NCBI GenBank assembly: GCA_003255025.1
Contig: QANY01009110.1
Location: forward strand, 992,001 to 1,056,000
Source of the DNA: Datisca glomerata
Lineage: Eukaryota > Streptophyta > Magnoliopsida > Cucurbitales > Datiscaceae
Direction: 5' to 3'
Length of the DNA: 64,000 bases
Position numbers and translations under genes: made by a program. The notes beneath the pieces were generated by a model. It ran no database searches. It was not told where the DNA came from and saw nothing but the letters and a program-made list of their open reading frames with translations. Of this stretch, positions 20,126 through 20,610 are shown piece after piece (the stretch's first letter is position 1; the number at the start of each line of letters is the position of its first letter).

Positions 20126-20610
20126 TTATTAAGGATTCTACTACATGTCTATGACTCTTTTAAAATCCGTCAGGCATGATGAAGAAAGTTCCTTATGGAA
20201 TAAAAAATTCTTCTATTGTTTTATTTGGAAATTCAATTTTAAATATTGCTTGTCCCAAAAGGTTTACGGTTAAAATTTTACTGTTATCATAACATATTTC
20301 ATTATCTTTGTGAAAACCTATTTTTCCACCTTTTTCATACCACTGAATTAATGTTGTATTGAAGTTATCCTTCAATCCAACATCTTCTAAAAGTCCATCC
20401 AATTCATTAATCCAGCCATTTCTTGGATATTCAAATCTATTATGACCATACTTAATAAATGGAGATTTTGAACAGAAGGAGGTTGTTCTGTCATTAAATT
20501 TCTTGATTCTAAAAGAATTTTGATTGAGTATTCTAGGTTCTACCTTTCCATATTCTAGTTGGTCAGAATTCTCAAGTTCCTCCATTGTTGAATCTTGGAA
20601 TGATTCCCTG
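20126..20610 (-). pseudogene. AlkB-like 2OG-Fe(II) oxygenase domain in viral copy C
   Basis: A 130-codon open stretch (20585-20193) reads on minus through FEYPRNGWINEL, NTTLIQWYEKGGKIGFHKDN (HxD at 20312-20304) and ILTVNLLGQAIFKIEF. After one stop it continues with IMPDGF and SHRHVVES (distal His pair, 20153-20145). Order and spacing match viral AlkB domains: aromatic/Gly block, HxD, TVNL strand, GF..HxH. The final Arg-bearing strand is missing; sequence jumps into the ORF2 start. Known AlkB enzymes remove methyl groups from DNA or RNA by oxidation using iron and 2-oxoglutarate. In RNA plant viruses the domain is thought to protect the genome. Here it sits at the C-terminal end of a pararetroviral polyprotein. 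Confidence 0.8.

Follow-up and report, generated by a model that had tools for sequence, protein, structure and literature searches.

A putative AlkB demethylase domain, apparently kept by selection, in a probably helper-dependent pararetrovirus of Datisca glomerata

Component B of the bipartite florendoviruses is missing reverse transcriptase (RT) and the N-terminal portion of RNase H but retains the movement protein, coat, and protease, and its polyprotein ends in a sequence like open reading frame 2 (ORF2) (Geering 2014, PMC4241990). The non-autonomous pararetroviruses of grasses are likewise without RT and RNase H and share an intergenic region with a partner (Chen 2017, PMC5491270), and for both groups a polymerase supplied by the partner has been proposed (PMC4241990; PMC5491270). 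AlkB domains occur in flexiviruses (Bratlie 2005, PMC544882); virus-encoded AlkBs demethylate RNA in vitro (PMC9289625), and some plant RNA viruses remove N6-methyladenosine (m6A) by means of their own AlkB and so evade silencing (PMC12846519). Among retroelements, Ty3/Gypsy retrotransposons of Phalaenopsis carry an AlkB/2OG domain of the ALKBH5 type in a separate ORF, for which removal of m6A in vitro was shown, and a survey across 121 angiosperms recovered the domain from two Phalaenopsis alone (PMC9289625); because RT served as the marker, RT-poor elements could have escaped that survey. In addition, the RNA of the retrotransposon ONSEN is released from stress granules when ALKBH9B removes its m6A (PMC12786077). 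The element considered here lies in a stretch of 64,000 nucleotides from Datisca glomerata (contig QANY01009110.1, positions 992,001 to 1,056,000; hereafter the window), which holds three endogenous pararetrovirus copies (A, B, and C), two of them (B and C) with an AlkB domain in the polyprotein.

The preferred reading, given a probability of about three in four, is that copies B and C represent a florendovirus-like, helper-dependent pararetrovirus with AlkB, in which AlkB, protease, and ORF2 are under selection and AlkB most likely demethylates viral RNA. The element resembles florendovirus component B in the features listed above, but an AlkB separates its RNase H tail from ORF2, and it still has an RT relic. 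It is like the grass pararetroviruses in its defective RT and RNase H and, as far as the comparison of the three window copies goes, in an intergenic region that is 88% identical between A and C over 304 bases; unlike the grass forms, it has an AlkB, and the RT of copy A is nearest, among named plant matches, to proteins of Prunus and Rhododendron. The AlkBs of plant RNA viruses belong to plus-strand RNA viruses, whereas the Datisca element is replicated by reverse transcription, and in contrast to the Phalaenopsis elements its domain lies within a viral polyprotein. The words AlkB and oxygenase have 0 occurrences in the Geering 2014 text (PMC4241990), a word search of the text of a 2026 paper on early Caulimoviridae gave no AlkB, oxygenase, demethyl, or 2OG, and no report of AlkB in Caulimoviridae or reverse-transcribing viruses was found among titles and abstract openings in the open-licence literature on Caulimoviridae and endogenous pararetroviruses. 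The features on which the argument turns are as follows:

20118..20605, minus strand: AlkB (2OG-Fe(II) oxygenase) domain of copy C, with two in-frame stops near its end
20196..20639, minus strand: stop-free piece of copy C, 148 codons, holding the front part of AlkB and used as the search query
20606..20784, minus strand: C-terminal tail of RNase H in copy C, directly before AlkB, with weak profile matches
20785..21194, minus strand: degenerate RT of copy C, the RNase H core being missing between it and the tail
12560..13051, minus strand: decayed AlkB domain of copy B, 76% identical in DNA to that of C, with HKD reading SKN
12875..13351, minus strand: stop-free frame of copy B that enters AlkB from the RT thumb by way of the RNase H tail, the tail placed via DNA alignment with A
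7631..8754, plus strand: fragmented RT and RNase H region of copy A; YIDD and the RNase H core are present, and no AlkB follows
8735..9834, plus strand: end of RNase H into ORF2 in copy A, the site where B and C have AlkB

An initial annotation, made from the letters of the DNA, had placed a 130-codon AlkB-like domain in copy C. Its motifs are borne out by the minus-strand translation, with HKD at 20312-20304, the TVNL strand downstream of it, and the GF..SHRHVV segment, which reads MPDGF..SHRHVV at 20177-20139; the stretch is not fully open, as the two in-frame stops fall within the last part of the domain, and the domain is present also in copy B, which that annotation missed, and not in A, where ORF2 comes straight after the RNase H end. 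The AlkB of copy C is real but broken, and in window copy B the HxD is lost. The Pfam comparison that had been proposed as a check gave a match of the open piece of copy C to PF13532 (E 3.5e-6, 27.8 bits, under the curated cut-off of 31.2), and 0 of 10 reversed or shuffled controls matched PF13532 at E ≤ 1. In an hhalign comparison with 10 phage AlkBs (10 of 11 AlkB-like IMG/VR proteins, with L012 omitted as a near-duplicate of L011), the front half of C and, separately, the back half of B each aligned, correctly in register, to the corresponding part of AlkB (p 0.014 and 0.0074, with hhalign's own probabilities low at 3.1 and 5.2%, respectively), and a reversed sequence gave p 0.64. The motif MPxGFQxxHxH, built from B and C plus general AlkB features, matched 13 IMG/VR stretches, 11 of which are AlkB-like by their frames, and all five of the stretches submitted to Pfam match PF13532.

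The domain is widespread in the plant assembly. A PF13532 profile search of its 678 Mb (E ≤ 0.001; 150 of 427 candidates scored) gave at least 129 matches, host genes included, at least 98 of them over the curated cut-off, a few host genes included. Forty-eight places were fetched, comprising 8 initial loci and 40 further ones (the next 20 rows by rank, one row being passed over, and 20 chosen by hand across the lower rows), and the AlkB of the window was present at 41 of the 48; six others are host ALKBH exons, presumably ALKBH1-like (C760, C888) and ALKBH2-like (C906) by their look, and one (C385, L020) has no match to the viral AlkB. The 8 initial loci consisted of the six host-gene exons, L020, and one viral locus (L019), and the 7 non-viral places were removed before the counts on 41 loci. 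Within the fetched stretches ORF2 stands beside AlkB in 38 of 41 loci (18/21 and 20/20), a single stop-free frame covers nearly all of AlkB in 21/41, and AlkB and ORF2 share one such frame in 11/41. The best pairwise match per sequence (43 sequences, window B and C added; at least 800 bases) ranges from 77.2 to 96.7% identity, with a median of 94.0%. Because AlkB is present at many loci, its occurrence in this virus is not a one-copy accident, and the earlier claim of an AlkB inside an endogenous caulimovirid is supported by the profile match and by these loci; the outcome named as its refutation, a host gene inserted in one copy only, was not what was found. In each of two loci, L031 and L033, at least two AlkB remnants lie within 3.4 kb, so that AlkB copies occur in nested or tandem arrays elsewhere too. 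L020 (G000:C385:761957-762256) has a PF13532 score of 42.5 bits, over the cut-off, and a 213-residue open frame, for which, at the thresholds applied, no match was obtained with the viral AlkB or with the phage profile.

The catalytic ligands are conserved among 40 loci aligned to L024, with the first H in 40, D in 36, the second H in 39, and the two R in 39 and 36 (one gap), and HxD, H, and RxxxxxR are present in 18 of 18 stop-free pieces spanning the core, which were selected for full-length match. Ratios of non-synonymous to synonymous polymorphism (pN/pS), taken against the open frame of L024 with 34-40 loci per segment, are 0.33 for the AlkB core (bootstrap 0.30-0.36), 0.44 for the N-terminal part of AlkB, 0.35 for the protease tail, and 0.37 for ORF2, as against 0.61 for the RT relic, 0.78 for the RNase H tail, and 0.93 for the linker after AlkB; a lower-ranked sample of 20 loci gives 0.32 for AlkB. 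A transition-rich neutral simulation of AlkB already yields 0.64, and a ratio below 1 was for this reason dropped as a sign of selection by itself; simulated neutral copies kept at 15-20 bits give 0.61, and those kept at 25-34 bits give 0.53-0.57. On the segment-wise ratios and the simulated values, AlkB has the evolutionary pattern of the protease and ORF2, and not that of its flanking segments, in this AlkB-selected sample, and it is apparently maintained by selection in a viral form whose copying enzyme is broken. A suspected pair of tandem RT domains was rejected, the first match being the protease misaligned to the RT profile, and an RT ratio of 0.68, which mixes protease and RT matches, was not used. 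Selection might have kept the domain for a function distinct from demethylation, such as binding RNA or serving the polyprotein as a structural element, and the replacement of the D of HxD in 4 of the 40 loci would suit such a role; it is nevertheless an improbable one, though the best placed of the alternatives, since every one of the five ligand positions is kept in at least 36 of 40 loci, as well as in the 18 core-spanning pieces.

The loss of the polymerase went beyond what the initial annotation had described, as did the constraint on AlkB; on the loci compared, the AlkB form looks to have lost both the RNase H core and the RT motif. Copies B and C share a damaged RT with an insertion ahead of its active site, and both lack the RNase H core; what is left of RNase H in C gives matches at profile positions 564-582 (E 0.04), 586-596 (E 0.2), and 598-622 (E 1e-4). 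With the RNase H core of copy A as query, none of the 41 AlkB loci matched at E ≤ 0.01, whereas 45 of 45 relatives did. An RT motif is readable on the AlkB strand in 7 of 41 loci (YINN in 5, HINN in 1, YIDN in 1); window copy B also reads YINN, and a looser any-strand scan adds L058 (YINN) and found a DD (YIDD) motif in 0 of 41 loci, the fetched stretches reaching about 2 kb before AlkB (less than 1 kb in L022). A defect of RT and RNase H common to many copies, the mark of a non-autonomous pararetrovirus, is accordingly what the AlkB copies display. The 45 relatives are proteins of 43-68% identity, and those named are nearly all from plants, Prunus, Rhododendron, potato, and clover among them. 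Twenty-six of them reach the RNase H end, 25 of which stop within 27 residues of it, and 7 of the 45, six being from Prunus, have an ORF2 match (best 2.2e-22); judged by PMC4241990, these ORF2-bearing relatives would be florendoviruses. No AlkB was found in the 45 (best E 0.78), although relatives that end earlier could not have shown one. With an RNase H core present in the relatives and no AlkB match among them, the AlkB together with the crippled polymerase looks derived in this lineage. One protein, P0005, filed under a Nitrosopumilaceae archaeon metagenome-assembled genome, is 66% identical to the RT-RNase H piece of copy A and is probably plant DNA in an archaeal bin.

It might be supposed instead that the AlkB virus was autonomous and that the damage to RT and RNase H came after integration or is confined to the sampled copies. 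Decay from G to A could yield YINN repeatedly, the RT motif could be read in no more than the 7 loci, and L022 has little sequence before AlkB. This supposition is also unlikely, and slightly more so than a role other than demethylation, because the RNase H deletion lies at the same junction in B and C, the core has no match in any of the 41 loci, and the RT relic and the RNase H tail have near-neutral ratios while AlkB and ORF2 do not.

On the source of the domain, the initial annotation had named an RNA virus or the host, and the comparisons lean to the former. A structure model built from C and the phage AlkBs, which is poor (predicted local distance difference test, pLDDT, 46), was compared with BFVD, and the best 50 of 117 matches were listed. 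At the head of the list stand pieces of the replicases of grapevine rupestris stem pitting-associated virus and Asian prunus virus 2 (E ~6e-4, 33% identity). Twelve of the first 14 matches carry a name, which in every case is that of a plant RNA virus; identity is 27-36% for 10 of these 12, 21% for one, and 10% for the other. The first match named as a phage AlkB stands at rank 43 among these best 50 of 117 (E 2.6). The Datisca domain also has the HxD, H, and RxxxxxR of plant RNA-virus AlkBs (flexiviruses, ampelovirus, and blackberry virus Y). Against a profile of the viral AlkB, host ALKBH2-like exon pieces score 15.4 and 7.5 bits and whole phage AlkBs 14.8-32.7 bits, and recent capture of host ALKBH2-like genes is disfavoured because the exons are no closer than the phage AlkBs. 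On these comparisons, which are weak evidence, a source of the RNA-virus type would be likely. At the pLDDT of this model the double-stranded beta-helix expected of an AlkB enzyme is a putative feature of the Datisca domain, though plant RNA-virus proteins lead the ranking. An RNA-virus-like pattern, HxDDExCY, found one stretch, whose frame does not read as AlkB, so that the collection scanned with it yielded no RNA-virus AlkB for a tree. By chance, one fossil copy could in principle have received a host ALKBH gene or a piece of an integrated RNA virus, which then spread with the chromosome while having no viral role, as the position of B and C as neighbours in one array and their evenness by codon position (given below) would allow; this is very improbable in view of the 41 of 48 places with AlkB and their spread of identities, the difference in constraint from domain to domain within the same loci, and the distance of the host exons.

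Searches with the copy C piece elsewhere gave little: 10 candidates in a protein database, none at E ≤ 0.01; 107 candidates for a padded piece, none at E ≤ 1; no AlkB match in PDB sequences (phmmer), NCBIfam, or PHROGs; no tblastn match to phages at 1e-5; three to plasmids, all with E 9; and no relatives in IMG/VR scans with AlkB, RT, and ORF2 pieces. The blanks in the protein database, PDB sequences, NCBIfam, and PHROGs at the thresholds applied, and the score of copy C alone, speak for a chance resemblance in an AT-rich decayed frame, which is refuted by the genome-wide PF13532 matches over the cut-off and by the ligands in 18 of 18 pieces, with none of the ten controls matching, and deserves practically no credence.

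Several observations weigh against the preferred reading of a helper-dependent pararetrovirus with a selected AlkB. B and C differ in AlkB without third-position excess (0.26, 0.22, and 0.24 by codon position), and most pieces compared between A and C are likewise flat, which argues against claiming function on the strength of the window alone; ORF2, on the other hand, shows third-position excess in several pieces between A and B or C. In addition, the Pfam score of copy C falls short of the curated cut-off, a 76-residue piece of copy B has no Pfam match, the structure models are poor (pLDDT 35 and 46), and only two BFVD matches reach E ≤ 0.001, in a ranking made weak by the poor model. The loci were found via AlkB itself, which favours good AlkB copies and biases the selection test, and the median score of the real copies, 38.6 bits, exceeds the highest simulated threshold (34). 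The match of the RNase H core in all 45 relatives in part reflects how they were collected, with a query overlapping that core; the loss of RT activity is read from 7 loci and window copy B; and the one candidate helper here is copy A. The host exons, no farther than the phage AlkBs, and the simulation, which stops short of the real scores, slightly lower the probability of this reading and slightly raise those of a chance insertion and of an autonomous AlkB virus.

The remaining features of the three copies, of which A and B lie tail to tail and C and B head to tail, are as follows:

3197..10700, plus strand: copy A, endogenous pararetrovirus, approximate extent
10797..18173, minus strand: copy B, approximate extent
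18234..25976, minus strand: copy C, approximate extent, head-to-tail with B
11378..12543, minus strand: ORF2 region of copy B
18994..20117, minus strand: ORF2 region of copy C, in broken pieces
21224..25293, minus strand: 5' module of copy C (movement protein, coat, and protease), 87-94% identical to A in the compared pieces
18109..18120, minus strand: primer-site-like TGGTATCAGAGC, an exact 12-mer at the start of copy B, presumably the tRNA-Met primer site

Profile matches in the window copies follow the Caulimoviridae-type order of movement protein, coat, RT, and RNase H, with RVT_1 matched in copy A at 6.4e-15 and the movement protein in C (7.8e-4) and coat in A (7e-5) both under the cut-off. 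In the movement-coat part, A and C agree against B at 345 sites and B and C agree against A at 77, whereas in ORF2 the corresponding counts are 80 and 180; the protease rows (44 vs 41) and intergenic rows (7 vs 10) are even, the RT rows are small and mixed, and none of these three enters either sum. On these counts copy C is a mosaic of an A-like 5' module and a B-like AlkB-ORF2 module, formed between viruses or between chromosomes. Three-way lists of insertions and deletions in A, B, and C were too noisy and were given no weight. The start of copy B holds a 135-base tandem duplication (17904-18173), each unit of which has the primer-site-like 12-mer (17974-17985 with one mismatch; 18109-18120 exact), and a run of unknown residues in ORF2 of copy A (9478-9834) probably reflects unknown bases in the window there. 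Elsewhere, 50025-50435 and 57446-57892 hold integrase core and copia-type RT pieces of long terminal repeat retrotransposons, the spacing of roughly 6.0-6.1 kb between repeats at 52588-54194 and 58616-60306 points to a repeated element, and a locally GC-richer stretch at 42243-43119 holds a tandem array whose units are about 86-88 bases long.

Under the preferred reading, a florendovirus-like lineage would have gained AlkB at the polyprotein end, with the RNase H tail on one side of it and ORF2 on the other, and the AlkB lineage would be non-autonomous through loss of the RT catalytic motif and deletion of the RNase H core, with a polymerase supplied in trans by an autonomous relative; by analogy with the described two-part systems, that helper may have been a partner like copy A. 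AlkB, protease, and ORF2 would have been kept under selection, and AlkB, most likely released by the viral protease, would oxidatively strip methyl groups from bases of the viral RNA. Demethylase activity is predicted for the enzyme, and its putative substrates are lesions that block RT, such as N1-methyladenosine (m1A) and 3-methylcytidine (m3C), or m6A marks used by the host; because the RNA of a pararetrovirus is the template for reverse transcription, lesion repair and escape from m6A control are both possible. The fullest version, in which an AlkB RNA demethylase from a plant RNA virus serves a helper-dependent pararetrovirus by a division of labour, the partner contributing the polymerase and the AlkB form contributing repair or epitranscriptomic defence, is tentative and stands a little short of even odds.

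Descriptions of AlkB exist for plant RNA viruses and for a single family of retrotransposons, and a constrained AlkB in a pararetrovirus would be an addition to these. Such constraint suggests that RNA methylation also matters to viruses whose RNA is the template for reverse transcription. The domain may likewise offer a case of gene exchange between RNA viruses and reverse-transcribing viruses, and related viral forms with and without AlkB within one host genome amount to a natural experiment.
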